DNA from: Phycisphaerales bacterium
GTDB lineage: Bacteria; Planctomycetota; Phycisphaerae; Phycisphaerales; SM1A02
NCBI GenBank assembly: GCA_029245245.1
Contig: JAQWPT010000028.1
Location: 1 to 64,000 of the forward strand
DNA length: 64,000 nucleotides
Direction of reading: 5' to 3'
The notes under the pieces were generated by a model. It made no database searches. It saw only the letters and a program-made list of their open reading frames with translations, and was not told the DNA's origin. Every line of letters starts with the position of its first letter. Within the stretch, counting starts at the first letter, position 1. Positions 8,653 to 23,646 of the stretch are shown here, piece after piece. Both the position numbers and the translations under genes were made by a program.

Positions 8653-9249
8653 ATGGCAGACCAACCCAAAGGAAATGTGACGATGTTGCTGCACTCGGCC
8701 GCCGAAGGCAATGACGCTGCGGCCGAAGCACTCTGGAGCACAGTCAATGACGAGCTTCGCCAGATGGCTGCCAACCAGTTGCGCCATCACAAGGGCGGAA
8801 TCACCCTCACCCCCACAGTCGTACTCCAGGAGGTCTACCTCCGAATCGTGGATGACCAGGGCACGATGCCCCAGTGGGACAACCGACGCCATTTCTTTGG
8901 AAGCGTCGCACGCGCAATGAGCCAGTTCCTCGTCGATCATGCCCGCCACCGAGGCCGCCTCAAACGGGGTGGCGATCGCCAGCGTGTCCCTCTGGACATC
9001 AATGCGGGAGAACTGGTCTCGACACGGACCCATGGTGGCGAGGAGTTGGCGATGGCGATGGTCGCATTTCAGCAACTGCAGACGCATTTTCCACAACAGG
9101 CCACAGTCGCATGGCTTCGATGGGTGCAGGGATGGACCATCGACCAGGTCGCCGAGGCCCTGGAGATCTCTGCTCGTACGGTGACCAATGAGTGGCGGCT
9201 GGCCCAGGCCTGGCTGCGTCGAGAGTTGAAAATAGACGAAGAAATATGA
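8653..9249 (+). CDS. ECF-type RNA polymerase sigma factor
   Basis: This 198-residue sigma factor has region 2 in its N-terminal half (H-S-A-A-E-G-N-D-A-A-A-E-A-L-W, then R-H-F-F-G-S-V-A-R-A-M) and region 4 at the C-terminus (W-T-I-D-Q-V-A-E-A-L-E-I-S-A-R-T-V). The T-P-T-V-V-L-Q-E-V-Y-L-R motif marks the planctomycete/acidobacterial ECF group that is routinely found beside Ser/Thr kinases, and the kinase gene follows after 55 bases. Start 8653 was chosen over the longer frame because AGGGA lies just upstream. It probably directs genes that respond to the neighbouring kinase, which is inference from the pairing. Confidence 0.92.
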   Translation: MADQPKGNVTMLLHSAAEGNDAAAEALWSTVNDELRQMAANQLRHHKGGITLTPTVVLQEVYLRIVDDQGTMPQWDNRRHFFGSVARAMSQFLVDHARHRGRLKRGGDRQRVPLDINAGELVSTRTHGGEELAMAMVAFQQLQTHFPQQATVAWLRWVQGWTIDQVAEALEISARTVTNEWRLAQAWLRRELKIDEEI

Positions 9250-9304
9250 TGCAGATCACGCAGGGCACCTTCTCGATGACGCATGGATTCAGTGGAGCCA
9301 ACCC

Positions 9305-12300
9305 ATGAACCACGATCCAGACCGTATCCAGGAACTCTTCGATGCTGCTGTACAGCTCACTGGTGAACAGAGAGCCAACTATCTCATGGAAGCCTGCGGC
9401 GACGACCTTGCCCTGCTCAAGGAACTCGAGTCGCTGCTGGACAACATGACCTCCGACGAGACGATGCCACATGCTCCACCTGGAAGTGAGAAGCACGTTG
9501 TCCACGATCGCATCGGGCCGTACACGATTCTCTCGACCCTCGGAGAAGGTGGCATGGGCGTGGTCTACCTGGCCCAGCAGGAGGAACCGATTCGGCGGAA
9601 GGTCGCGCTGAAGATCATCCAGGCCAGCAAGGATTCATCGAATTTCATTGCCCGCTTCGAGGCCGAACGACAAGTGCTGGCGATGATGGATCATCACTGC
9701 ATCGCCAAGGTGTATGAAGCGGGCATGACGGATGATGCCCACCCCTACTTCGTCATGGAGTACATCGAGGGGCGAACCATCACCGAGGCCTGCGACGAGG
9801 ACGAACTCGATATCAAGCAGCGACTGGAGTTGATGGCAGATGTCTGCGATGCCGTGCAGCATGCCCACTTGAAGGGCGTCATCCACCGCGACCTGAAGCC
9901 AGGCAACATCCTGGTCTACCGGGATGATGACGGGCGATTGCGCCCCAAGATCATCGACTTCGGTATTGCCAAGGCCACCAGCCAGGATCTCTTTGAATCA
10001 CCGGACATCACCCTGCAGGGGCAGATGCTTGGAACACCTGCCTACATGGCCCCGGAACAGGCCGACGCCAGGGCGAGCGACATCGATACCCGCAGCGACG
10101 TGTACGCCCTTGGCGTGATCATGTACGAGGTGATCGCCGGGCAGCCCCCGTTCACTGAACGATCGCTCCGGCAAGCTGGTTACGACGAGATGCGCCGAAT
10201 CATCTGCGAGGAGGACCCGCCGCGGCCGAGCACCTGGCTGGCGAGCACCGGGGGCGAGGATGCGTCACGAATCGCCCATGCCCGCCGTACGGAGGTCGCC
10301 CCGCTGTCGCGCATGCTCAGCCGGGAACTGGAGTGGATCCCGCTGAAGGCCCTTCGCAAGGAACGCAGCGAGCGGTACGGCTCGGCCAGTGACATGGGCG
10401 AGGACATCCGCCGGTACTTGACGGGTCAGCCACTTGAAGCAGGGCCAGAGTCCGCGATGTACCGATTCCGCAAGAAGGTTCGCCGCAACAAGGGTGCCTT
10501 TGCAGCCATTGCCATCATCATGCTGATCCTGATTGCGGGTGTCGTGGTGTCGTTGACCTTTGCGATTGAGGAAGATCGGCAACGACAGATTGCGCAGGAC
10601 AAGGAAAAGATCGCTCTTGAAATGGAACACGAGGCCGATGTAGCGAGAGAAAAGGCCGAAGCAGCTCTCGTAGATGCAGCTCGTGCCGCCTATGACGGCC
10701 GGATGTCCCTGGCCGCAATTCGACTGTCATCAGGCGATAGAACCAAGGCCCTCGAATACCTCAGGCATGCAGCATCGGTCGATGATGTCTTTGACCCTGC
10801 CGATCCCCCGATGCCCTGGCTGGCCATGCACTCGGCTGCTTCGAACAGCATCCTAGGCATGGATGACGTTGAGTTCACCCCCTACCACGGATCATCCGAC
10901 CTCTCGTATGTAGATGGAATGGGTCAGAGTTGGCCCAGCAACACTGACACGAATCTCATAGCGGCTTCCATGATCAAGTGGAATGAAAACAATTTTTCTC
11001 GCTCGGAACTCGTCATATACAACAAGGAGAACCAGGGCGACGGGAACCTGGGAATCATTCACACCTTGTTCAGCAGGCCTACTCGCGAAGGGGCATATTC
11101 GGCCTCCTGGACGAGTGATGACGCACTGTTGATGGTATTGAGAGACAAAGGAAGTGATGCGACAAGTTCAGTCATCGAGTGCTGGAACACCGCCACGGGC
11201 GAACTGGCATGGCAAAACGAGATCGGGAAGTTGACGTACAAGGATGTCAAGCGTTTCAGCGGTGATGGAACACTGCTTGCCGTCCTCGAAGGCGCAACCA
11301 TCGTGGTCTCTGATGTCACGAATGGAAACGTGCTGCATCGGCTGCACGCCGATGAAGACGTGGCAACCATCGCTTTTGATCCTTCAAGCAGTCATATTGC
11401 AAGTGGCGGCACGAATGGAATGGTGCGAATGTGGAATCTCTCGTCTGGAAATACACAGTGGGAACTCGAAGCACTCGGCGGGATAGGGACTGCCATGTTC
11501 AGCTCCGATGGCAGCATCCTGAAAACAAAAACCAATGACGTGGTACCGCATGACGAATACTGGACCGTGGGCATGCAGCAGTGGGATATGGACCAGGAGG
11601 ATGTGCTGGAGATCGCCGGTATCAAGCAGCGGAACACGGAACTCCAGCAGTTGGCGGTCGACAATATCATTCAGGCAATTGATGCCCAGGTGGGAATCAG
11701 ACCCGGATCACCAGCCCAGGTGTCCGAGTTGACCATGAGCCCATATTCATTTCACGTGGCGAGCATCGAGGTGGAAGAAATCGAGCCGGGGACCAGTCCA
11801 TCGCCCTGGTCCCTGGAGTCCAAGCCAGCACGACACGACAGCACGATCTCGATTCTAAACATCCTCGATGGATACCCCGTTGATGAACTGCAGTTCGTAA
11901 AATCGATGCAGAAAACGGTAGCCTTCAGCCCGGATGGCCGGCACATGGCTGTTGCCATGCCACCAAGGACCCATCTATCGGCGGGTGACAAGGTGTCACA
12001 ACGCCGAGGGCTGCCAGCGGCAGAAAAGCCACAGGGGCCATCTTCGATCAAGATCTGGGACCTGGAGAAGCGAATATGGGTCGAGACACACGAGATTCCA
12101 AAACCTGAACAGTACTACGGCGCACATCCCGCGGCCATTTCCTACAGCCCCGATGGATCTTCGATCGCGATGCTCAGCAATGCAGGTATAAAGAACCGCC
12201 GGGGCGATGGCTTCATCCATGTGATTGATGTCTCCACCGGAGAAATACAGCAACAGTTTTCGAAGCGGGAATGGCTTCTTCAACGCCCAGATGAAAGATA

Positions 12301-13285
12301 TACGTTCAGCAACCTTGCCTACAGCCCGGATGGCAGCACCCTGGCTGTCAGTGACAATTTCAATCGCATCCTGTTCATCGACCTTCTTGAAGGGCAAGGA
12401 ATATCACGCGAAATGGCGATCGTGGAGGATGACATCGAGCGATTCGGCTTTACAAAGGATGGCTCCATCCTGGTCGCGGTCACGGCCGAACGCTTCATTG
12501 GCTGGAACCCGGCCTGGGAATCGAAATGGGATACGAAAGAACGAGATCCCGTTCTCGACATGCCCCGGACGACCGAGCAGGCGGTCATCTTCACCCGGTC
12601 CAGGGGAGAGCGGTTTGTTCATTACGCGAAGGCCCGGCAGGAACTTGCAGACATGGTGAACGAGGCCGACGAATGGATGCCGAGCCACGATGGTGATGAT
12701 GTAAGCATCCTTGTTGATATGAAAGCAGCTGGCCGAGACGACACACACGTGGAGATCATGAAAAATCTCATCATGCTCAAGTTCATCGAGCGACTGGAAG
12801 AGCCAATCGATGCAGCGACCGAGATGCTGGATTCGATGCGAACAACGCATGGCCCTGAACACCCGAAAACACTTGAAGCAATGTATCGACTTGGCTATGC
12901 CTTCTATAAACAAGGCAGGTACAAGGAGGCGTTGCCGTACTACACGGAGGCCCTTGAAAGCCGACGCCGTGTCCTTGGCGATGAAGATCCCGACACTCTC
13001 AACTCGATCTTCATGGTAGGCACCGTGCTCCGCATGCAAGGAAAGCACGATGAAGCCATGGTGTACTACATCCAAGTTCTTGAAGGGCGTCGCAGCGTCC
13101 TGGGAATGGAGCACCCCGAGACACGTGCTGCCCTCAAGCCAATCACGGATTTGATCAAGCTCTACAGGCAACAGAAGAATTACGACAAGGCGGCAGAGTA
13201 CATCAGGCTGCTGGGCAGCGAGGATGAGCCGGCGCCATCGCCAGGCGAACCCTCCGCTGAGGAGACCGCAAACGCGTCACCCTGA
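9305..13285 (+). CDS. Membrane Ser/Thr protein kinase with WD40-like propeller and TPRs
   Basis: This 1326-residue protein is a receptor-like kinase. The Gly loop G-E-G-G-M-G is at residues 80-85, the ATP-binding Lys at 103, the catalytic H-R-D-L-K-P-G-N at 194-201, D-F-G at 218-220 and A-P-E at 249-251, so the kinase should be active. One transmembrane helix spans about 399-421, followed by a charged coiled-coil. Residues about 490-1120 contain WD40-like repeats with F/Y-S-P-D-G turns. The last 130 residues hold kinesin-light-chain-type TPRs (Y-K-E-A-L-P-Y-Y-T-E-A-L-E). GGAG lies seven bases before the start. It is paired with the ECF sigma factor upstream. Confidence 0.95.
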   Translation: MNHDPDRIQELFDAAVQLTGEQRANYLMEACGDDLALLKELESLLDNMTSDETMPHAPPGSEKHVVHDRIGPYTILSTLGEGGMGVVYLAQQEEPIRRKVALKIIQASKDSSNFIARFEAERQVLAMMDHHCIAKVYEAGMTDDAHPYFVMEYIEGRTITEACDEDELDIKQRLELMADVCDAVQHAHLKGVIHRDLKPGNILVYRDDDGRLRPKIIDFGIAKATSQDLFESPDITLQGQMLGTPAYMAPEQADARASDIDTRSDVYALGVIMYEVIAGQPPFTERSLRQAGYDEMRRIICEEDPPRPSTWLASTGGEDASRIAHARRTEVAPLSRMLSRELEWIPLKALRKERSERYGSASDMGEDIRRYLTGQPLEAGPESAMYRFRKKVRRNKGAFAAIAIIMLILIAGVVVSLTFAIEEDRQRQIAQDKEKIALEMEHEADVAREKAEAALVDAARAAYDGRMSLAAIRLSSGDRTKALEYLRHAASVDDVFDPADPPMPWLAMHSAASNSILGMDDVEFTPYHGSSDLSYVDGMGQSWPSNTDTNLIAASMIKWNENNFSRSELVIYNKENQGDGNLGIIHTLFSRPTREGAYSASWTSDDALLMVLRDKGSDATSSVIECWNTATGELAWQNEIGKLTYKDVKRFSGDGTLLAVLEGATIVVSDVTNGNVLHRLHADEDVATIAFDPSSSHIASGGTNGMVRMWNLSSGNTQWELEALGGIGTAMFSSDGSILKTKTNDVVPHDEYWTVGMQQWDMDQEDVLEIAGIKQRNTELQQLAVDNIIQAIDAQVGIRPGSPAQVSELTMSPYSFHVASIEVEEIEPGTSPSPWSLESKPARHDSTISILNILDGYPVDELQFVKSMQKTVAFSPDGRHMAVAMPPRTHLSAGDKVSQRRGLPAAEKPQGPSSIKIWDLEKRIWVETHEIPKPEQYYGAHPAAISYSPDGSSIAMLSNAGIKNRRGDGFIHVIDVSTGEIQQQFSKREWLLQRPDERYTFSNLAYSPDGSTLAVSDNFNRILFIDLLEGQGISREMAIVEDDIERFGFTKDGSILVAVTAERFIGWNPAWESKWDTKERDPVLDMPRTTEQAVIFTRSRGERFVHYAKARQELADMVNEADEWMPSHDGDDVSILVDMKAAGRDDTHVEIMKNLIMLKFIERLEEPIDAATEMLDSMRTTHGPEHPKTLEAMYRLGYAFYKQGRYKEALPYYTEALESRRRVLGDEDPDTLNSIFMVGTVLRMQGKHDEAMVYYIQVLEGRRSVLGMEHPETRAALKPITDLIKLYRQQKNYDKAAEYIRLLGSEDEPAPSPGEPSAEETANASP

Positions 13286-13291
13286 ACAGGT

Positions 13292-14191
13292 TCATCGATC
13301 GCGGTCTCCACACCATCCCCAGGCATCAAGCACCTGCAGCAGGTCGGTCGTATTGACCACCCCGTCGCCGGTGGCGTCGGCGGGACAGGGCGGGGGGCAC
13401 GTGTCGCCCGCACACGCCACGTGCTCACCCCGCCACTGTCCACCAGCGTCTTCACAGGCATCGATCGTCGTCATGACGCAGTACCCGTGAAGACAACACG
13501 CCCCGGCCGGTCCGCAGTCATCGCGGACCGTGATCATTCCCACATCGCTCCAGCCGATGCCGTCGCCCTCGAACCCGCAGCGGATCACCCGCGGCTCGGC
13601 CCCGTCGCAGTCGATCTCCGGACTGCCCGCGTTGCGATAGAACCAGCAGTCACGCAGCGTCGGGGATCCGCCGGCGATGTACATCGCCGAACCCGTGTCC
13701 GCCTCGTTGCCCGTGACCAGGCACCGGCTGATGCGGGGCGATCCCCCGAGAATGCGAATCGCTCCCCCGCGTCGCACTCCCGAGGAATCAAGATCCCCGC
13801 TTCCCCCGGTGATCGTGAACCCTTCGACAAGCGTTGAAGGGCCTTCCCCATTCTCCATGCACACCACCGAACCGCAGCCATCGGCCGCCAGCGTCGTGTA
13901 CTCCGGACCTCGCTCGCTGCGAAGCGTGATGGCCTTGCCCAGCAGGTCGATGCACTGCACGTACCGGCCGATGCCCACAAGCACCTCGTCACCGTCGCGC
14001 GCCGCGTCGATGGCGGCCTGCACCGTGGCGTATTCAAGTGGAACGCGCAACACCTGCGCGTCGACTCCCCCCGGGGCCCCACCCCCGGCCAGCAAACACA
14101 CCATTGACAATGACTGCAGCACCATTCGAGGCACCGTAGTGCCGGCCCTTTCCACTCCCGCGGGAATTGGTGAAAAGCCGATGATCGACAT
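13292..14191 (-). CDS. Secreted beta-helix protein with one dockerin-like calcium loop
   Basis: This protein of about 299 residues has an N-terminal hydrophobic signal (M-V-L-Q-S-L-S-M-V-C-L-L-A), a right-handed beta-helix region beginning with V-P-L-E-Y-A-T-V-Q-A-A-I-D-A-A-R-D-G-D-E, a Cys-rich insert, and a C-terminal A-T-G-D-G-V-V-N-T-T-D-L-L-Q-V-L-D-A-W-G. That is a single dockerin-like loop, where two are usual. The start is uncertain: 14191 gives an N-region with Arg before the hydrophobic core, while 14125 lacks positive charge. It lies 6 bases from the kinase stop (convergent). Function is unknown; the architecture suggests surface or extracellular display. Confidence 0.7.
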   Translation of the reverse strand: MSIIGFSPIPAGVERAGTTVPRMVLQSLSMVCLLAGGGAPGGVDAQVLRVPLEYATVQAAIDAARDGDEVLVGIGRYVQCIDLLGKAITLRSERGPEYTTLAADGCGSVVCMENGEGPSTLVEGFTITGGSGDLDSSGVRRGGAIRILGGSPRISRCLVTGNEADTGSAMYIAGGSPTLRDCWFYRNAGSPEIDCDGAEPRVIRCGFEGDGIGWSDVGMITVRDDCGPAGACCLHGYCVMTTIDACEDAGGQWRGEHVACAGDTCPPPCPADATGDGVVNTTDLLQVLDAWGWCGDRDR

Positions 14192-14270
14192 GAAGGCAGT
14201 CGCCTGCTCTTGCGCAGTACGGCCGCGCCATTCCGAGTTAATTCCAAGGGGATTTCCGGCTTTCGGGGCC

Positions 14271-15290
14271 ATGATCAAGTACCTGGGATCAAAGCGCACG
14301 CTCATTCCCTCGATCCTTGAACAGATCGAGCGCGTACCCACATGCACCAGCGTGCTTGATCTCTTCTCAGGGACCTCTCGTGTCGGCCACGCGCTCAAGC
14401 AACGTGGCTACCGCGTGATCTCCAACGATCACAACGAGTACGCACATGCCCTGGCCACCTGCTACGTGCAGGCTGATCGCGGTCGGCTGCTGGCCGACGT
14501 CGAGCGCCTCGTGGACGAGTGCAACCACATCGCCCCCGATCCAGGCTGGTTCACCGATACCTTCTGCATCCAGAGTCGATTCATTCACCCTCGAAACGGG
14601 GCTCGGATCGACGCGATTCGCGAGCACCTGGAAGGCCTGGACCTGGAACCCGAACTCAAATCCGTCATGCTCGTCTCCCTCATGGAGGCCTCCGACCGGG
14701 TCGACTCGACCACCGGCGTGCAGATGGCCTACCTCAAGAAGTGGGCGGCCCGGGCCCTCAAGGACCTGCAACTGCGGATTCCCGATTTCCTGCCGCAGGC
14801 GGAGGCCGGAAAGGGCGAAGCCCACTGCCTCGATGCCGCTGAGGCCGCCAGCCAATTCACGGTGGACGTCGCCTACCTCGATCCTCCCTACAACCAGCAC
14901 TCCTACCTGGGCAATTACCACGTCTGGGAGAGCCTCGTTCGCTGGGACAAGCCCGACGTCTACGGCATTGCCTGCAAGCGGACCGACTGCCGGACCCGCA
15001 AGAGCCCGTTCAATCGCAAGCGGGAGATCCGCGACGCCCTCCAGCTGGTCATCGATTCGGTCAATGCCCGCTCGATGGTCGTCTCATTCAGCAATGAGGG
15101 GTACCTGCCACGCGAGGAGCTAGAGGCCATGCTCGCCAATCGCGGTGATGTCACCGTCCTGGAGCATGACTACAAGCGGTACGTGGGAGCCCAGATCGGC
15201 ATCCACAACCCCAAGGGCCGCAAGGTCGGCACCGTCAGCCACACCAGGAACAAGGAGTTCCTCTTCGTGGTTGACCAGATGGCCGCCTGA
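14271..15290 (+). CDS. DNA adenine N6-methyltransferase (D12 class), orphan
   Basis: This 339-residue protein has the D12-class layout: K-Y-L-G-S-K-R-T at residues 3-10, the S-adenosylmethionine loop D-L-F-S-G-T-S-R-V-G at 30-39, and the catalytic D-P-P-Y at 204-207 followed by N-Q-H-S-Y-L-G-N-Y-H-V-W-E. This combination methylates adenine at N6; the target sequence cannot be read from the protein. No restriction endonuclease lies on either side, so it may have a regulatory or housekeeping role. Its start codon lies 80 bases from the divergent beta-helix gene. Confidence 0.92.
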   Translation: MIKYLGSKRTLIPSILEQIERVPTCTSVLDLFSGTSRVGHALKQRGYRVISNDHNEYAHALATCYVQADRGRLLADVERLVDECNHIAPDPGWFTDTFCIQSRFIHPRNGARIDAIREHLEGLDLEPELKSVMLVSLMEASDRVDSTTGVQMAYLKKWAARALKDLQLRIPDFLPQAEAGKGEAHCLDAAEAASQFTVDVAYLDPPYNQHSYLGNYHVWESLVRWDKPDVYGIACKRTDCRTRKSPFNRKREIRDALQLVIDSVNARSMVVSFSNEGYLPREELEAMLANRGDVTVLEHDYKRYVGAQIGIHNPKGRKVGTVSHTRNKEFLFVVDQMAA

Positions 15291-15324
15291 CATTCCACGA
15301 ATCATCATTTCAACGGCTTCAGGG

Positions 15325-15339
15325 CTGCTTTTTTAGCAG
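15325..15339 (+). terminator. Short hairpin downstream of the methyltransferase
   Basis: CTGCT and AGCAG are inverted arms with a TTTTT loop, 35 bases after the methyltransferase stop. The T-run is in the loop rather than after the stem, so this is at best a weak terminator. Confidence 0.25.
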
Positions 15340-15357
15340 ACTTGACCATTTGAAGCC

Positions 15358-15406
15358 ATTTTAGACTACTTCATGTCGCTAACGCACGCGAACATGCGTC
15401 TAAAAT
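15358..15406. repeat. 49-base two-part palindrome in a gene-free stretch
   Basis: The outer arms ATTTTAGAC (15358-15366) and GTCTAAAAT (15398-15406) are perfect inverted repeats. Inside them, CATGTCGC (15372-15379) pairs with GCGAACATG (15388-15396) with one bulged base. The whole could fold into a long interrupted hairpin or serve as a large operator. It is far more AT-rich than the flanking genes, and no T-run follows it. Confidence 0.55.
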
Positions 15407-15613
15407 ACGCGATCGTGCAGCGATCTCCATTAGTTTCATGAATGTGCAACCGAGTTCACAAATCGATGCGAAATGAACAAGACCGATCACATAAATCTCT
15501 TCCAACGAAGTAGATGGAGAGCAAGCGGTGAAAGGATCCATGACTGATCTGGTTCGAAACCCGAACTCCCCACTGCGTCATTCCGGTCAAACGACCGCAC
15601 CCTGTTATTCCGT
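15407..15613 (+). other. Gene-free stretch ending in a terminator; possible small RNA
   Basis: From 15291 to 15716 I find no convincing gene. A frame starting at GTG 15528 with GGAGAG upstream would read straight through the strong terminator at 15614-15652, so it is probably not translated in full. The stretch contains GGTTCGAAACC at 15551-15561, which forms a small hairpin and resembles a tRNA T-arm, but no acceptor stem or other arms exist. An AT-rich start, a folded middle and a textbook terminator together are what an independently transcribed small RNA would look like. Confidence 0.35.
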
Positions 15614-15652
15614 CCCTGGCGTGCCGTGCCGCACGCCAGGGGCGATTTTTTT
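15614..15652 (+). terminator. Strong intrinsic terminator
   Basis: An 11-base perfect stem (CCCTGGCGTGC at 15614-15624, GCACGCCAGGG at 15631-15641) with a 6-base loop is followed by GCGA and seven T residues at 15646-15652. It acts on rightward transcripts. The nearest annotated rightward gene, the methyltransferase, ends 323 bases upstream, so the terminator may belong to an unannotated transcript. Confidence 0.85.
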
Positions 15653-15716
15653 GGCGAACATGATGGCTTCAGTCGCTAAATGTTGCGATCATGCCGGCTT
15701 CTTGCTGGCTTCTTGG

Positions 15717-16790
15717 TCAATCTGACTCGATGATCTGGCAGTGTGGCCCAAGTGTCCACACTCGAGCACTGTCACCTGAACCCGCCTCCCTGACCTCCAC
15801 GACCCAGCCCGCGGGCTCAACGCTCAAAACCGGGGCCAGGAGGGCGGGATCACCCAAGGGGGTCCAGAGTCCATCGAGGTCATCCATCGACGCGGGCGAG
15901 GCTCCATTGGCAGCCGAGTAGGCCACGATTGCCGCGTGCACCCTTCGAAGGGTAGTTCGGGCCGACTCGTCACCGGCAGGCACGTACCCCCGGGTCCCCG
16001 GCGGTGCATTCACGAAGAGCACCCGGCCCCAGTACTGGGGCCGGTGCATGTCGATGGCATCCTGCTGGGACCAGACCCAGTTGTCCTCGCGTACACCCGG
16101 CATCCGGGCATACACCCCGTCGTTCAACACGTGCTGCCACTGCACCCGGGAGAAGTTCACCCACCACTGGTCACCTCCCTCGGGAGGAACGACCCTGTTG
16201 GCATGCGACGCCAATGAGGCCCAGGGAATCGCGATCTCCATCGTCCAGGCCCGGTCGCGGTCCGCCGGGTCGTTGAGCGTCCCATCAATGTCCACCGCCG
16301 TCTGCAGGCCGCCAATGTCCCAGCCGATGTCATACGTCCCCCCGCAGCGGTATGGCCGCGTGAGCATCAGGTCGAACTGCGTGTTCAGCGCGTTGACCTC
16401 AAGTTCGTAGTAGTCATGAGCATCCCCGTCAGGATCGATGAACACCTCGAAATCGTTGTCGTTGTAGATGATCGAATCACGGGCCTCGAGGGTGCCCCAG
16501 ACATCGGGCTCCTCCATCCATGCCGCCACGTAGAAGTTGGCATCGTCCCAGGTCATCTTGGCCCGGGTCCGGAACCGGGGAGCCGGCTTCCCTGGCCCCT
16601 CGATGTCCTGGAAGTCCGCCGTCCACGGGGCGGCGGCCCAGGCCCCGTCGTCAAGGCGACCGTCGATGACAGGTGGCTGGGCGACCTTCCCCGCCACGTA
16701 GGTCCGGGGCAGGTCGCTCGTGGCGCAGCCCGTACCCGGGATCAGGATCAGCAGCAGGATGCACCAGCGAACCATCATCGCCGGCAGCAT
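15717..16790 (-). CDS. Lipoprotein with CBM9-like domain
   Basis: This protein of about 357 residues starts with a lipoprotein signal: M-M-V-R-W-C-I-L-L-L-I-L-I-P-G-T-G-C, with Cys as the lipidated residue. The following P-V-I-D-G-R-L-D-D-G-A-W, later W-D-D-A-N-F-Y-V-A-A-W and D-N-D-F-E-V-F-I-D-P-D-G-D match the carbohydrate-binding module family 9-like fold seen in surface proteins. The C-terminal 90 residues carry a separate segment with a helix like those at the start of pseudopilin-type domains. It probably binds glycans at the envelope. The start codon lies only 16-28 bases from that of divergent moaA, so regulatory signals must sit inside the coding sequences. Confidence 0.8.
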   Translation of the reverse strand: MLPAMMVRWCILLLILIPGTGCATSDLPRTYVAGKVAQPPVIDGRLDDGAWAAAPWTADFQDIEGPGKPAPRFRTRAKMTWDDANFYVAAWMEEPDVWGTLEARDSIIYNDNDFEVFIDPDGDAHDYYELEVNALNTQFDLMLTRPYRCGGTYDIGWDIGGLQTAVDIDGTLNDPADRDRAWTMEIAIPWASLASHANRVVPPEGGDQWWVNFSRVQWQHVLNDGVYARMPGVREDNWVWSQQDAIDMHRPQYWGRVLFVNAPPGTRGYVPAGDESARTTLRRVHAAIVAYSAANGASPASMDDLDGLWTPLGDPALLAPVLSVEPAGWVVEVREAGSGDSARVWTLGPHCQIIESD

Positions 16791-16818
16791 ACCGCCACCG
16801 CCTATCATGCACCCGCCC

Positions 16819-17889
16819 ATGACCACCGCGCTGCCAGTTCTTCGTCCCGACCTCGACCCGCCCCGGGCCCCCCACGCCCCGGCCCACGCCCGTCGATCCG
16901 GACACCTTCTGGACAGCCACGGGCGGCGGATCCAGGACGTGCGGCTGAGCATCACCGACCGCTGCAACTTCCGCTGTGTCTACTGCATGGAACCCGGGGA
17001 CCGCTTTCTTCCCAAGATGGAGCTGCTGGACCTCGGCGAATACCTCAGGCTCGTGGACGTACTCCTCGAGCTTGGCATTCGCACCCTCCGACTCACCGGC
17101 GGCGAACCCACGCTTTATCCCCAGCTGGACGAACTGATCGAGGGCATCGGCCAACGCGATCTCGACGACGTGGCGATGACCACCAACGGCTCGCAACTGG
17201 ATCCCGAGCGACTCGCACACTGGCGGGCGCACGGACTGCGGCGACTGACGTTCAGCCTCGACACCCTGCGCGAAGACCGCATGGCGAACATCACCCGATC
17301 CCGCACCACCGTTGCCCACGTGCTTGAGGCGATCGAGCAGGCGAGGAATGCAGGCTTCCCTCGCCCCAAGGTCAACGCGGTGATCATCCGCGGCGTCAAC
17401 GACGACGAGGTCGCCGACTTCGCCGAACTGGCCCGCCGCCGGGATCTGGACGTCCGATTCATCGAGTTCATGCCGCTTGATTCCAATCGGGCCTGGAACC
17501 GCGATCACGTGGTGGACGCCGACGAAATGCTTGCAAGCATCCAGCAACGGTTCGAGCTGCAGGCCGATGCGCACACCGGCCCGCATTCGACCTCGATGAA
17601 CTGGACCTTTGCCGACGACGCGCCGGGTCGCATCGGCATGATCGCCCCGGTCAGCCGCCCCTTCTGCGGCGCCTGCAACCGACTGCGCATCACCGCGGAG
17701 GGACGAATCCGCCCCTGCCTCTTCAGCCACGAGGAATGGGATATCCGGGCCCTGCTTCGGGATGATTTGGACGATGCCGCGGTCGCCGCAGCCATCGTCG
17801 ACATGGCGTGGACCAAGCAGGCCGGCCACGGAATCGACCAGACGGACTTCATCCAGCCAGCGAGAACCATGTCGGCCATCGGCGGATGA
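16819..17889 (+). CDS. moaA: GTP 3',8-cyclase MoaA (molybdenum cofactor biosynthesis)
   Basis: This 356-residue radical SAM enzyme makes the first intermediate of molybdopterin synthesis from GTP. The N-terminal cluster motif is C49-x3-C53-x2-C56 (C-N-F-R-C-V-Y-C). The second cluster is C-G-A-C-N-R-L-R followed by a third Cys 13 residues later, and the protein ends with the diagnostic G-G. The first 30 residues are Pro/Arg-rich and longer than usual; an alternative ATG at 16807 would add four residues. No other moa gene is in the window. Its stop abuts the stop of the next, convergent gene without a spacer. Confidence 0.96.
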   Translation: MTTALPVLRPDLDPPRAPHAPAHARRSGHLLDSHGRRIQDVRLSITDRCNFRCVYCMEPGDRFLPKMELLDLGEYLRLVDVLLELGIRTLRLTGGEPTLYPQLDELIEGIGQRDLDDVAMTTNGSQLDPERLAHWRAHGLRRLTFSLDTLREDRMANITRSRTTVAHVLEAIEQARNAGFPRPKVNAVIIRGVNDDEVADFAELARRRDLDVRFIEFMPLDSNRAWNRDHVVDADEMLASIQQRFELQADAHTGPHSTSMNWTFADDAPGRIGMIAPVSRPFCGACNRLRITAEGRIRPCLFSHEEWDIRALLRDDLDDAAVAAAIVDMAWTKQAGHGIDQTDFIQPARTMSAIGG

Positions 17890-19716
17890 TCAGAGCGTGC
17901 AGTTCCAGTTGGCGATGACGATCAGCAGATCGCTGACGTTCACGATGCCATCACCGTTGACATCTTCCGTGCAGCCTCCGGGCTCGATCGAACAGTCGGT
18001 GTTCCAGGCCGCAATCACCGACAGCAGGTCGGCCACGTTGGTCGTGCCGTCGCCGTTGGTGTCACCCGGGCAACCCGGGGGTGTGATCTGGAAACTGCCG
18101 ATCCAGGTCTGCCAGCCGCTGCTGGACGCCCACTCGCCGATGTACCAGAAAGTCGTGTCGTCGACGGGGTCGATCACCATGTCGAAGTAGTCGCCCCAGC
18201 GGCCATCGGCCCCCGAGGGACTTTCGACCACGATCTCGGGAGTGCCCATCGTCCCAGGCGGATCACTGGCGGCACGGCCGGTGATGCGCACACTCGGGTT
18301 CGTATTCGACTGGCAGTGCCCGAAGGCAAGCCCGATGTCACCGTGGACATTCATCGCCACTGCGGGATAGAACCCGTCCTCGGATCCGGGCAGATCGATG
18401 GCTCCGGCCTGGACGAGCGTGGGCTGCGCCGGCGCCGGACCGAACTCGCCCGGCCAGTCACCGGTATCGAGGTGGTACCAGCGGCACTCGCTCTCATTTC
18501 CGGATTCCACCGCGTGGGCGAAGACCAACTGCCCGTCGCGCCAGTAGACGTTCATCAACCGGCCGTCGAGGGTGTCGATGCTGCCCCCGGGGTTCGGTGC
18601 ATTGGGAGGCGAACCACTATTCGAGGGAACCGAGATGGATGCCGTGAAGAGTTGCGGCTGGACAAGGGGGCTTCGAATCGCCTGGATGCGCATCGAGGAC
18701 TGGCTTTCGACGGACACGAAGAACGGTCCGACCGGTTCCCCGTGGTGCACTGCGCACTGGGCGCTGCCCGCGTCGTACGTGAGATCGCTGAAGGTCACTG
18801 GATCACCGGAGAGCATCGGCGTCTTGTTGAGGACGCGGTACAGGATGCCTCCGAAGCCTGGTCCGCTGCCACCAAGTTGGAAGAGATTCGAGGTCACCGT
18901 GAAGGCACGATGGTCGAAGCCGAACCCGGGGTAGTCCACCCAGTAGGTCGCGTTGCCGATGCTGATGATCGCGGGAGTGCGGTACTTGTACCAGGAGCCG
19001 TTCGGGTCGCTGTCGTCGGATACCGCAATGGTGATCCAGGATTCATCCGGGTAGTACTCCAGTGCCAGGATCACGAATCGTTCCGAATCATGGTCGTAGA
19101 AGCACTTGGGATCGAAGGTGAAATCACCACCACCAATCTCCTCGAAGAAACCCGGGGAACCCGTGCTGTCGAGATTCGCGAAGAACTGCTCGTTGCCTTC
19201 CTTGTCGTAGAAGGCCACGGCCATGTTGACGGTGGAGATGATGTGATCCGGCCCCACGGCAAGCGTCGGGTCGGGTGGTGACCACGCCGTCTGTGAGATT
19301 CCCGGGAAACGCGGCGCGGCCTTGACCACCGCCTTGTTCGTGATGCCACCGAGAGGCAGGTCCTCGCGTGGTCCCTCCGCCAGTGACTTGTCCCGGCCAT
19401 GCTTGGGCAGCAGTTTCCCAGGCCGGGCGGTCGGGCCCTCCCAGGGCACGTTGGGCTGGCGCTGGACGGGAAACTCCCTGGTATCGATGACCACCGGAGT
19501 CACCGTGGTTCTCGTGACATCACCATGTTCGTCGATGCGGATTTCCGGCAACGGCTGCGTCCGCTCGTGGTGGTGGGATGGCGTCCAGCCCTGCGGCCAG
19601 TTCGGGCCGTGCGCTACCGGCTCAAGCAGGCGTGAATCCAGTGAAGAATGCGGCTGGCAGGCACCAATGGCGAGCACGACCGGGAACAGTGTCACGAACA
19701 GGGAGCGAGCGTGCAT
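17890..19716 (-). CDS. Large lipoprotein with C-terminal dockerin-like repeats
   Basis: This 608-residue protein has a lipoprotein signal with lipobox I-G-A-C (Cys20). A Pro/His-rich linker precedes a globular region with D-P-T-L-A-V-G-P-D-H-I-I and W-V-D-Y-P-G-F-G-F-D, likely a beta-propeller-like repeat fold, but I do not recognise the family. Two dockerin-type calcium loops close the protein: G-D-T-N-G-D-G-T-T-N-V-A-D-L-L and D-V-N-G-D-G-I-V-N-V-S-D-L-L. AAGGA lies upstream of the start at 19716. It groups with the three other dockerin proteins of this region; these modules may anchor proteins at the surface. Confidence 0.75.
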   Translation of the reverse strand: MHARSLFVTLFPVVLAIGACQPHSSLDSRLLEPVAHGPNWPQGWTPSHHHERTQPLPEIRIDEHGDVTRTTVTPVVIDTREFPVQRQPNVPWEGPTARPGKLLPKHGRDKSLAEGPREDLPLGGITNKAVVKAAPRFPGISQTAWSPPDPTLAVGPDHIISTVNMAVAFYDKEGNEQFFANLDSTGSPGFFEEIGGGDFTFDPKCFYDHDSERFVILALEYYPDESWITIAVSDDSDPNGSWYKYRTPAIISIGNATYWVDYPGFGFDHRAFTVTSNLFQLGGSGPGFGGILYRVLNKTPMLSGDPVTFSDLTYDAGSAQCAVHHGEPVGPFFVSVESQSSMRIQAIRSPLVQPQLFTASISVPSNSGSPPNAPNPGGSIDTLDGRLMNVYWRDGQLVFAHAVESGNESECRWYHLDTGDWPGEFGPAPAQPTLVQAGAIDLPGSEDGFYPAVAMNVHGDIGLAFGHCQSNTNPSVRITGRAASDPPGTMGTPEIVVESPSGADGRWGDYFDMVIDPVDDTTFWYIGEWASSSGWQTWIGSFQITPPGCPGDTNGDGTTNVADLLSVIAAWNTDCSIEPGGCTEDVNGDGIVNVSDLLIVIANWNCTL

Positions 19717-19789
19717 GGAAATCGAGTCCTTTCCTGATCCCCACATCTTGCGATCACGTACCGATGGTCAGAGTCACTTTGCAGGCGTT

Positions 19790-21364
19790 CTAGGGACAGT
19801 CGAAGCTCGGACAGTCCCCATTCCACCACGAGAGTACTTCCAGCAGGTCTTCCACGTTGATCTCGCCGTCAAGGTAGAGATCCTCGTTGCAACCCAGGCA
19901 ACTCTGGCCCCACTTCTGGATCACCGCCAGCAGATCATCGACTGTCACGTACGTATCCCGATTGGCATCACCAGGGCATGAACACCAGGCGTTGAGCGTG
20001 CAGGTATTGTCCTGGTTGTTCCAGGTGCCGAAGGTGTTGGCACAGACGTTGGGGCCCAGGATGTTGTGGCAGAAGTCGACATTCGTGAGGGTCGGCCCGA
20101 AGGGGCTGGTGCTCATCATGCCACCAGCGAAACTCTGACCGACGTTCTCTCGAACGATGCAGTCGAGGATCACGGGCGTTCCATTGACCCGGATGCCGCC
20201 GCCCGCTGGCCCGTAGCCACGAATGATCGTGAATCCCTCGACAATCGAGTCCTCACCCTCTTCATTGAGCAGCTCGAGGCACGGTCGCGCCAGTTCGCCA
20301 TCGATGATGGTGACTGCGGGGCCACCACTGGAATGCAGCCAGATCGACTTGCCGGACATGTTGGCGACGGCATCACCCGTGTCCCGGTAGAGACCGGGAC
20401 TCACGAGAATCTCGTCACCATCGCGTGCGGCATCGATCGCCAACTGGATGGTTGGAAACTCCTTCGGCACCTCGATGATTCCGTCGCAGTCGAGGACGTC
20501 GCACGATGAATCCACGCCGAGGTAATCGCCACCGGAATCCTCACACGACCCCTCCGACACTCCATCGGTGCAGACGGAGTTGATGCAGCAGGCGCCGTAC
20601 CCGGGCGAACCATACATGTATTGCAGCGTCGCGATGTCGCCATCACTCAAGCCGTCCCGCTGTCCCATGACATCCTGGTATTCCTCGTATGGAGGCAGGC
20701 ACGTCATGGTCGGGCAGCCCGTGCTGAATCCCCACTGGCCGTAGTGCATGACCGATTCAAAATCGTACCCGCCGTGGTTGGGACATTGTTCGCACTTGTC
20801 ATAGTTGTAGGAGTTTTCGGGATCAATGCATTCATAGTTGACCGTGATGTAGTCATCGCGGTCCGATCTGCTCTGCTGGTGCAGGCGTCCCAATGCATGA
20901 ATGAGCTCGTGGCAGATGATGTACTGCTCACCCCAGTTGTACATGCTCAAATTCTGACTTCCACCCTGCATGCCGACGGCGGAAAAGTTGCCGCCACCTT
21001 CAAAGATGAAAATGTAGTTGGATTCGCTGGTCCAGGGGATGAAGAGCACCCCGATCTGGGCTTCGAGAACATTCATCGCTGCGCGGGTTCGATCCTGATT
21101 CGTCTGGCTGATGCCCTCGTCGAAGGTGTAATAGACGAGTCCATTGGGCCATTTCTGCCCTGCCATCGTGCCACGGTTGCCCGGTACACGACTCAGATCG
21201 CACTGCCTGATCTCACGCTCGACGCCGAGATCTCCACTGGAGCGAGCAACGTGACTCGTCTTCGAAGCCGACGTTTCCACCGGGGCCTGCTGCCCGACAG
21301 CCATTCCGCCGAACATTGCCATGACGAGGCTTGCCAGTGCCGTGATTTCAATCGATCGAAACAT
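19790..21364 (-). CDS. Secreted astacin-like (M12A) metalloprotease with beta-helix and dockerin module
   Basis: This 524-residue protein has a signal peptide, then an astacin-type catalytic domain. The zinc motif is H152-E-x2-H156-x2-G-x2-H162 followed by S-R-x-D-R-D, and the Met-turn S-V-M-H-Y is at 204-208, including the fifth zinc ligand Tyr. Two usual residues differ: the family Phe after Gly is Arg, and the Glu after the third His is Gln. From about residue 300 there is a beta-helix, then two dockerin-like loops and a C-D-C-P-like tail. GGAG precedes the start by seven bases. The C-terminal module is nearly repeated in the next protease. Confidence 0.9.
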   Translation of the reverse strand: MFRSIEITALASLVMAMFGGMAVGQQAPVETSASKTSHVARSSGDLGVEREIRQCDLSRVPGNRGTMAGQKWPNGLVYYTFDEGISQTNQDRTRAAMNVLEAQIGVLFIPWTSESNYIFIFEGGGNFSAVGMQGGSQNLSMYNWGEQYIICHELIHALGRLHQQSRSDRDDYITVNYECIDPENSYNYDKCEQCPNHGGYDFESVMHYGQWGFSTGCPTMTCLPPYEEYQDVMGQRDGLSDGDIATLQYMYGSPGYGACCINSVCTDGVSEGSCEDSGGDYLGVDSSCDVLDCDGIIEVPKEFPTIQLAIDAARDGDEILVSPGLYRDTGDAVANMSGKSIWLHSSGGPAVTIIDGELARPCLELLNEEGEDSIVEGFTIIRGYGPAGGGIRVNGTPVILDCIVRENVGQSFAGGMMSTSPFGPTLTNVDFCHNILGPNVCANTFGTWNNQDNTCTLNAWCSCPGDANRDTYVTVDDLLAVIQKWGQSCLGCNEDLYLDGEINVEDLLEVLSWWNGDCPSFDCP

Positions 21365-21400
21365 GATGAAACTCCATTACAGAACGCATATTCGTTGCAA

Positions 21401-21415
21401 GCAGGACTCGCCTGC
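21401..21415 (-). terminator. Weak hairpin between the two protease genes
   Basis: GCAGG and CCTGC arms around a 5-base loop, followed on the minus strand by TTGC. It could weakly separate the two leftward protease transcripts, or be chance. Confidence 0.2.
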
Positions 21416-21456
21416 CACACTGGATGTCGCACCCACTGCAGGGCGCACTTGGTCGG

Positions 21457-23646
21457 TCACGGACAATCGAAACTCGGACAATCTTCATTCCACCACGAAA
21501 GCACTTCCAACAGGTCATCCACGTTGATCTGGAAATCAAGATACAGATCCTCAGGGCAACCCTCGCATTCCTGTCCCCACAACTGGAGAACGCCAAGCAG
21601 GTCGTCGACCGTCACGGCCGAGTCCCGATTGACGTCACCCGGGCATGAGCACCACCCACTGAGGGTGCAGGTGCCATCGTCATCGACCCAGGTTCCGTAG
21701 GTATTGGCGCAACTGTTGAAACCCACGGTGTTATGACAGAATTCGACATTTGACAGAATCGGGCCGAACGGACCGGTGCACATCATGCCGGCGGTGAAGT
21801 TCTGGCCATAGTTGTCACGGATCACGCAGTCGAGGATCACGGGCGTTCCATTGACCCGGACGCCGCCGCCGGCCGGTGCGTAGCCGCGGACGATCGTGAA
21901 CCCCTGGACAACCGTTGACTGGTCCTCTTCGCCGAGCAGTTCGAGGCATGCCCGCTGCAGTTCGCCATCGATGAAGGTCACATCGGGCCCGTCACTGGAG
22001 TGCAGCCAGATCGACTTTCCTGAAACGTTGGCAACGGCCTCGCCCACGTCACGATAGATGCCGGGAGCCACGATGATCTCGTCCCCGCTGCCGGCAGCAT
22101 CGATCGCCAACTGGATGGTCGGATAGTCGGTCGGCACGATCAGGACATCGTCCGTGGAACCCACGTCGATGATGACCGTGGCCCCGTGACCAGATTCAAG
22201 TTCGTATTCGAACGTATCCACGGTCGAGAATCCCAGGGGGGGACTGTACCGAAGGCGATCACGCGGGTATTGAGGCGAAGACGGCACCAGTACGATCGTG
22301 CCTCCATTGTCCGTTTCGGTATCAAAGGTGCCCAGTGCAATCGAAGCGGGATCACAACTGGCACCCATGTCGTTCAGCAGCACGTCGCAGTCCACTGGCT
22401 GGTTCACGCTCGTGAAGATGTTGTCGTCCACAGCGGTCGTGGCCGCGCCGGTCTCGTCGCAGCTCACGGAATCAAGGTAGGAGTACATGTACTCCTCGAT
22501 GGCCGGATGGAACTGGAGCACCATATTGCCGATGCCACCGCTGCAGGTATGGCAGTAGCTCATCATGGTGGCACCAAAGGCGTCATCACAGTCGCCGCCT
22601 GCGCAATTGTCGATGCCGATGTCGTGGGTATGCGGGGCGCCGATGTTGTGGCCCAGTTCATGCGACATGACGACCAGGTCCCAGTTGCCGCCGTTGTTGT
22701 CTTCAAGCGGCACGGGGAAGGATCCCGAGAGGTAGCCGGAGACCGAATACCCCCAGTTGTTGCTGCAGGTCGTGCCGCCGAATGCAACGCCCCCGTACGG
22801 GAGGTTGTCACGGCCACTGAGGATGTGGGCGACATCGCGATCGACGAACCCCATGTCCGAGACCCAGTGGTCCCTGAACTGATCCAGCATGTCGATCCCG
22901 TTGGTGGGATCGTACGGATCATCGTTCTCTTCCCAGACCCGCACGAAGTTGATGATGTACTTCACCCCGATCTCGGAATAGTAGATGCTCGAAACCGCGG
23001 CACCAAGAGTGACCATGTACGAGGCCGACGCCACGGTGTCGCCACCAAAGGTGACGTTGCTGTACTCGAAATCCGACTCCAGGGCGATCTCGAGAACAAC
23101 GCATGTGCCTGAGGATCGATCCGAAGCAGCACCCTGAGGTGCGAGTTTCTCGATGTTGTTGGCGACGATTCCGCAGAACTCGACACCCTCGATATTCCAT
23201 GCCGGGATATCGCGGGAATGCGTCACGAGGAGTTCCAACTCCGCTTCGGATTGCGAGCGGGTGGTGGCCATCCAGTAGATGCCATCGTCGCGACTGATGA
23301 ATCCATTGAGTTTTGAATCCGTCACGGACACGAACACCTTGCTGTCGGGTTCACCGACGACCGAACCGCGGTAGGTGTGCACGATGTCCTCCGGCTGGAG
23401 GAAGCGACGCCCCTTGGATCCCTCGACGACGATCACCCCGTCATCAGCCATGGCCGTAAAGGGCACCAGCGACAGGTCAACCAAACGGGTGGCATCAAGC
23501 TCGATGCCCTTGAGCATGCAGGCCGTGCTCGCCTGTTGGAGATTCATGATGTCCTTCCACGTTGTGTCGACCGCTTGACCGGCAGCAAGTGGGGATATCA
23601 AGCCTGTGGCGAGAGCCACAGCACCAATGCAATGACGGATGTTCAT
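21457..23646 (-). CDS. Secreted reprolysin-like (M12B) metalloprotease with beta-helix and dockerin module
   Basis: This 729-residue protein has a signal peptide and a propeptide-like region, then a metzincin domain with the zinc motif H329-E-L-G-H333-N-I-G-A-P-H339 and the Met-turn M-M-S-Y-C-H. The context Y-I-I-N-F-V and W-D-L-V-V-M-S-H-E resembles ADAM/reprolysin-type bacterial proteases. A linker follows, then a beta-helix beginning P-T-I-Q-L-A-I-D-A-A, and two dockerin-like loops (G-D-V-N-R-D-S and D-L-Y-L-D-F-Q-I-N). The start at 23646 has GGAG 12 bases upstream. It probably degrades extracellular protein; attachment through the dockerin module is inference. Confidence 0.9.
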   Translation of the reverse strand: MNIRHCIGAVALATGLISPLAAGQAVDTTWKDIMNLQQASTACMLKGIELDATRLVDLSLVPFTAMADDGVIVVEGSKGRRFLQPEDIVHTYRGSVVGEPDSKVFVSVTDSKLNGFISRDDGIYWMATTRSQSEAELELLVTHSRDIPAWNIEGVEFCGIVANNIEKLAPQGAASDRSSGTCVVLEIALESDFEYSNVTFGGDTVASASYMVTLGAAVSSIYYSEIGVKYIINFVRVWEENDDPYDPTNGIDMLDQFRDHWVSDMGFVDRDVAHILSGRDNLPYGGVAFGGTTCSNNWGYSVSGYLSGSFPVPLEDNNGGNWDLVVMSHELGHNIGAPHTHDIGIDNCAGGDCDDAFGATMMSYCHTCSGGIGNMVLQFHPAIEEYMYSYLDSVSCDETGAATTAVDDNIFTSVNQPVDCDVLLNDMGASCDPASIALGTFDTETDNGGTIVLVPSSPQYPRDRLRYSPPLGFSTVDTFEYELESGHGATVIIDVGSTDDVLIVPTDYPTIQLAIDAAGSGDEIIVAPGIYRDVGEAVANVSGKSIWLHSSDGPDVTFIDGELQRACLELLGEEDQSTVVQGFTIVRGYAPAGGGVRVNGTPVILDCVIRDNYGQNFTAGMMCTGPFGPILSNVEFCHNTVGFNSCANTYGTWVDDDGTCTLSGWCSCPGDVNRDSAVTVDDLLGVLQLWGQECEGCPEDLYLDFQINVDDLLEVLSWWNEDCPSFDCP

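Follow-up and report, generated by a model that had tools for sequence, protein, structure and literature searches.

What occupies the 426 bases (15291–15716) that separate two converging genes in the window, by which we mean the whole stretch of 64,000 nucleotides analysed? The genes meet tail-to-tail, the methyltransferase stopping at 15290 and the CBM9-like lipoprotein gene at 15717. An earlier note, made from the letters of the window, had drawn the gap at these limits, and its coordinates and both stops were verified; it had proposed a structured small RNA or the relic of a lost gene. In our assessment the gap probably holds a lineage-restricted, independently transcribed small non-coding RNA.

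In what follows G000 is the window genome, G001 and G002 are two other genomes of the same genus, and g5 is a second genus, with loci in G006, G132 and G133. Counts over six genomes refer to the genomes of both genera that carry the methyltransferase at 79% identity or more. The relatives' copies of the locus are named L029–L033, and the five contigs are DBGM01000052, DEYK01000033, JAQWRC010000408, PBMX01000046 and JABABM010000018. Judged by the methyltransferase, the closest named relatives are uncultured Phycisphaerales and one Phycisphaerae genome. The features are:

14271–15290, + strand: D12-class N6-adenine DNA methyltransferase, left neighbour (Pfam PF02086, E 1.2e-34; PADLOC MTase_II, E 9e-149)
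15358–15406, no strand: 49-base two-part palindrome (sequence; fold z −5.1)
15364–15426, + strand: three consecutive repeat units of about 21 bp, at 15364, 15385 and 15406 (g5-only matrix)
15488–15513, + strand: promoter-like pair, CACA (15488–15491), 19 bases, TAG (15511–15513); same spacing in six of six genomes
15520–15652, + strand: predicted small RNA of about 130 nt with a putative 5′ end (fold, covariation in three sequences, matches of model R1)
15525–15576, + strand: predicted closing helix GCGGUG (15525–15530)/CACUGC (15571–15576), enclosing hairpins A and B (single-sequence folds)
15534–15550, + strand: hairpin A, GGAUC-CAUGACU-GAUCU; AUCCAUGACUGAUC is the same in all three genus genomes
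15551–15567, + strand: hairpin B; one pair, U-A in two genomes, is C-G in G001
15584–15597, + strand: hairpin C, CGGUC-AAAC-GACCG; one pair is C-G in G001, U-A in the other two
15611–15652, + strand: intrinsic terminator, 14-pair stem and run of seven T; 5 of the 14 pairs show double changes in one genome or more
15651–15702, + strand: two further repeat units, at 15651 and 15682, past the terminator (g5-only matrix)
15717–16778, − strand: CBM9-like lipoprotein gene, converging right neighbour (Pfam PF06452, E 2.3e-11)

Past the gap, the next gene on the + strand is moaA, which starts about 1.2 kb on. No nuclease was found among the four scanned proteins neighbouring the gap. Searched against its own 2.69 Mb assembly, the gap DNA returned only itself (E ≤ 0.001); a distant-mode search of a phage collection gave zero matches; and GC skew, examined for an origin or terminus, takes no sharp turn at the gap. 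Enrichment in GATC was rejected, 31% of the window's 426-base stretches having at least as many. The window as a whole is poor in the words TTAA (2), CTAG (6) and TATA (10). Further upstream, 9305–13285 encodes a protein of 1326 residues that combines a serine/threonine kinase domain with WD40-like propeller stretches and TPR repeats, and 13292–14242 one whose NosD-like and dockerin-like matches are weak and fall below cut-off; a frame similar to the latter adjoins the methyltransferase in G001, G002 and L033.

Fold and strand of the candidate RNA

How would this stretch fold, and from which strand would it be read? The predicted body with its three hairpins occupies 15520–15606 and the terminator follows. 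The terminator stem (15611–15624 with 15631–15644) has 14 pairs, one of them G-U, a loop of 6 and a T-run at 15646–15652. The earlier note had rightly called it strong; it had placed the start at 15614, and the stem begins three bases earlier. There are four terminator-like sites in 2 kb, against 1.4 expected, and this one is by far the longest. The window thus supplies the terminator of its own that a stand-alone intergenic small RNA should have; in the second genus the stem is followed by a poor T-run. The ‘T-arm-like’ hairpin of the earlier note, at 15551–15561, exists as the 5′ part of the larger hairpin B.

The predicted fold of the window RNA has a z of −4.4 with the terminator and −1.0 without it; the bodies of G001 and G002, likewise stripped of the terminator, give −1.6 and −2.7. 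The closing helix is the least certain: its register varies by genome, and it lies outside the model. In hairpin A a single cell is broken across the three sequences, and one pair changes from G-U to G-C. The broken pair is in G002, whose lowest-energy fold moves the stretch into another hairpin. Judged by eye, a pseudoknot AUGAC/GUCAU is possible in G000 and G002 and impossible in G001.

In an alignment of the three genus sequences fitted to the model, 98.8% of cells are paired, against at most 47% in slid versions. Seven of the 29 pairs are changed on both sides (five in the terminator, one in hairpin B and one in hairpin C), whereas shuffles average 2.4 and none of 500 reaches seven. Over five sequences the non-Watson–Crick pairs comprise 15 G-U, no A-C and one other; the excess of G-U over A-C implies that the RNA reads rightward. 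These few sequences indicate a structure under selection on one strand. As evidence from three related sequences in a model-fitted alignment, the covariation is good but not overwhelming.

Conservation in two genera

Is the candidate RNA kept in relatives? A DNA search of 61 genomes recovered both other genomes of the genus, with the same gene order (G002, 79% over 15533–15644, E 1.4e-20; G001, 81% over 15510–15556, E 2.4e-4), and three further matches of 24–30 bases, in G004, G056 and G023. When 9000–21500 of the window was compared with the relatives' loci, the RNA body gave the only wholly intergenic alignments within the genus at E < 1e-4 (the same two segments and identities, 3e-21 to G002 and 6e-5 to G001); longer gene alignments extend across short gaps. 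Covariance model R1, built from G000 and G002, detects the third genome, G001, at the same locus (E 2.3e-14). Lack of conservation in relatives, which the earlier note had named as grounds for giving up the RNA, was tested, and the RNA is kept, with compensatory changes, in two same-genus genomes.

The covariance search that the earlier note had suggested extends the RNA, in diverged form and at the same place, to three genomes of the other genus. A protein search of 181 family genomes found the methyltransferase in 14, six of them at 79% identity or above (the genus and g5), and the CBM9 gene adjoins it in all six. Scanned over 11 methyltransferase loci, R1 ranks the three second-genus loci top (27.9, 19.9 and 13.6 bits), in the syntenic place. 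Reciprocally, R2, built from two second-genus genomes, matches G002 at this same place with 28.3 bits (E 1.1e-5); its matches there in G001 and G000 are weak (E 0.02–0.03). These cross-model matches owe much to the terminator stem: read on its reverse strand and by itself, the G000 terminator still reaches 26.9 bits.

What remains when promoter and terminator are removed? In several pairs the body alone aligns across the genera better than its shuffles do, z reaching 4.9. Out of 1000 shuffles, 0–1 reach the score in four of the nine cross-genus pairs and 21–35 in three; the other two pairs have 58 and 90. All five weaker pairs include G001 (z 1.4 to 1.9) or G006 (1.4 to 2.2), for which the alignment is weak. 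The CACA-N19-TAG spacing is the same in six of six genomes of both genera; the distance from CACA to the stem is near-constant, at 122–129 bases in segments starting three bases before CACA; and the methyltransferase stop lies 222–231 bases from TAG in five genomes and 338 in G132. From position, promoter-like pair and CACA-to-stem distance we take the RNAs of both genera to be the same gene. In g5 the predicted folds of G132 and G006 combine the stem and hairpins with a closing helix, which in G132 is GGUGCAGG/CCUGCACC; G133 retains shorter helices with changed pairs, its own whole fold reaching a z of only −1.7. At the level of sequence, then, position, strand, a predicted structure maintained through double changes and the fixed promoter-like spacing are all kept.

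Does the RNA occur more widely? On the 181 family genomes R1 gave four matches at E ≤ 1, the three genus genomes and G115; on a sample of 400 genomes of the order, some of them from the family, it gave the same four only (E ≤ 0.001). G115 (32.6 bits) was rejected as a relative: its neighbours are different, and we read the match as terminator-driven because of the 26.9 bits noted above for a reversed terminator. R2 gave seven matches on the 181 genomes at E ≤ 0.1, a threshold at which it missed the window's genus: the three of the second genus, G151 (35.1 bits), G191 (32.3), G119 (22.3) and G125 (19.2). G151, G191 and G119 were rejected as well; their matches omit both inner hairpins and rest on a terminator stem, and those of G151 and G191 sit after other genes. 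Within 1.5 kb of the methyltransferase in eight family genomes where that protein is 60–65% identical, with filters off, R1 scored at most 8.5 and R2 at most 8.8 bits. In 14 of the 24 other-genus CBM9 loci, from 30 CBM9 loci fetched, R1 scored at most 7.4 bits. The 181 family and 400 sampled order genomes thus yield no convincing relative outside the two genera, an absence that is not firm, since such models lose weak relatives. The RNA accompanies the close methyltransferase in six of six genomes and has no match beside the more distant one in those eight; positional linkage alone would give the same pattern.

Two of the rejected loci deserve a word of their own. In G115, L014:6199–6337 (− strand) is an intergenic hairpin with a strong terminator and a weak model match, possibly another small RNA. 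In G151, L142 carries two near-copies of a hairpin plus terminator (527–609 and 1501–1585), each 3′ of a gene, and the two encoded proteins have similar tails.

Palindrome and 21-bp repeats

What role might be played by the palindrome upstream? Its existence at 15358–15406, claimed in the earlier note, is borne out: arms ATTTTAGAC and GTCTAAAAT flank an inner bulged helix, and the fold energy is −15.5 kcal/mol, where shuffles average −5.4 (sd 1.97) and none of 200 does as well. That note had joined palindrome and terminator in one possible small RNA; of the two, only the terminator belongs to the RNA predicted here. The palindrome is separate from the RNA and overlaps a repeat cluster starting about 155 bases before it; a 21-bp unit ends in what is the right arm, and the left arm repeats that end in inverted orientation. 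For the five relatives, no inverted pair of this kind was reported.

The units belong to a 23-nt repeat family with 21-nt spacing. Over the 64 kb window the g5-only matrix ranks 15385, 15406 and 15651 first to third and 15682 sixth, while the unit at 15364 is weak (score 9.8); chance gave one site of 15.4 in the reversed window and one of 16.2 in 75 other loci. A site elsewhere outranks the gap units in G001, where over 11 kb they take places two, three and six; in G002 they come no higher than third. Within the genus, support beyond G000 is therefore weak. The repeats past the terminator (15674–15703, 30 bases) match G001 at 86.7%. The stretch after the methyltransferase stop, meant as a negative control, gave z 4.6 to 5.0 for G000 against g5, equal to the RNA body, and 1.1 to 2.9 for G001 and 0.5 to 0.9 for G002; the likely reason for the G000 similarity is a run of such units.

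A genome-wide repeat was rejected: the 14-mer TAAAATACGCGATC, with at most one mismatch, gave five matches in four of nine genomes, all within this gap. A looser 22-mer (3 mismatches) gave 33 matches in seven of eight genomes against 11 for the control, so looser copies may exist elsewhere; five of the 33 are in this gap, none of these in G000. Clusters in relatives lie at L032:6093–6268, L031:2157–2207, L033:6107–6149 and L029:6403–6511. In G132 the repeat block is duplicated, and two 59-base copies lie 117 bases apart in one genome. Spacings of 21 or 31 bases are frequent among the units, which would suit binding sites on one face of the helix, and we regard the units as putative sites.

Competing readings, mechanism and known families

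Could the hairpins instead belong to the methyltransferase message, as a long 3′ untranslated part whose read-through ends at the terminator? Their role would then be to protect the message or tune it; alternatively, the RNA would be cut from it. The RNA does lie on the same strand as this methyltransferase and beside it in all six genomes, and directly past the methyltransferase stop there is a weak 5-pair stem (15314–15327) in place of a strong terminator. Yet the promoter-like pair stands at fixed spacing immediately 5′ of the body, and most of the roughly 200 bases before the pair are poorly conserved, with a duplication of the repeat block in one genome. We consider this reading unlikely.

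That the hairpins merely terminate converging genes, making no RNA of their own, would suit the convergence and the stem in G006 (L033), with about 15 bases between its end and the CBM9 stop; but compensated extra hairpins, a conserved body and promoter-like spacing are superfluous for termination and the window stem has no T-run on the − strand, which makes this very improbable. A small protein from the ATG at 15540 is scarcely credible: AAAGGA precedes the ATG in the window and the codon is conserved in five of six genomes, yet one genome has ACG, the frame crosses the terminator stem without a stop in all six and diverges past the first residues, that of G000 has no Pfam match, and the changes follow base pairs. 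None of the four small frames of the gap has a Pfam match at E ≤ 1, in agreement with the earlier note that no gene is supportable here; its lost protein gene gains no support.

We conclude that an independently transcribed, structured small RNA is the most probable occupant of the gap, as predicted from structure with compensatory changes, conservation and promoter-like spacing. The earlier note was right to propose a structured RNA; strand, extent, promoter-like element, spread and the palindrome's separate repeats are new.

How might such an RNA work? Its transcription, exact 5′ end and way of acting are what we infer. Transcription would run rightward from a start of its own near 15520, behind a promoter-like pair where no sigma-70-like site was reported on the + strand, to about 15652, and the product would fold into three hairpins and the terminator stem. 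Most likely the RNA would base-pair with messenger RNAs through its best-kept stretch, CAYGA, which forms the loop of hairpin A in the model for the window's genus, is single-stranded 3′ of a hairpin in the g5 folds and is paired in the lowest-energy fold of G002. Duplex tests against the start sites of four genes (the methyltransferase and three neighbours) in two genomes gave no consistent signal; at the methyltransferase start in six genomes, z was −2.2 in G000 and −1.0 to +0.9 in the other five. The upstream 21-bp units would be binding sites for a regulator of the RNA's promoter. It is a long shot that methyltransferase, phased repeats and RNA form one unit in which a repeat-bound protein, perhaps a dedicated regulator or the methyltransferase itself, switches the RNA and the methylation state is read out.

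Does the candidate belong to a known family? At gathering score, the search of RNA family models suggested by the earlier note (Rfam 15) gave no match in the window or the five relatives' loci. At E ≤ 5, 15150–15850 gave five sub-threshold matches, the best to NsiR1 (RF02399), a cyanobacterial family. The likeness is a short helix, a spacer, a strong terminator stem and a T-run; the candidate reaches 22.9 bits where the gathering score is 39, and the match is mostly terminator. ARAGORN found no tRNA or tmRNA in the window. The letters GGTTCGAAACC resemble the T-loop of a tRNA T-arm, but the hairpin here spans 15551–15567 and its loop letters are not conserved in relatives. A riboswitch or leader attenuator was rejected: no same-strand gene lies directly downstream, the next gene being on the − strand and ending at 15717. 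Sponge RNAs of the CsrB/RsmZ type, which bind protein, repeat GGA in hairpin loops. Such a sponge was rejected as well; by eye, the modelled loops of G000 and G002 contain no GGA, and since only G001 has it (hairpins B and C), GGA is not kept.

Among the papers that literature searches listed, no title or abstract opening describes this RNA. A passage in a 2022 review counts 8 distinct Rfam sRNAs in the PVC group against 345 in Proteobacteria (PMC9029176). Planctomycete small RNAs are hardly charted, and a candidate whose strand, structure, promoter-like element and end are defined in six genomes can be tested directly, the surrounding repeats offering a handle on its control. Bacteria often use small structured RNAs as regulators. 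Like other intergenic bacterial small RNAs, the candidate is intergenic, about 130 nt long, built of hairpins and a terminator, and fast-changing outside a short kept stretch; unlike them, it is predicted from sequence and found here in two uncultured planctomycete genera only. It would be ordinary in kind and new as a family.
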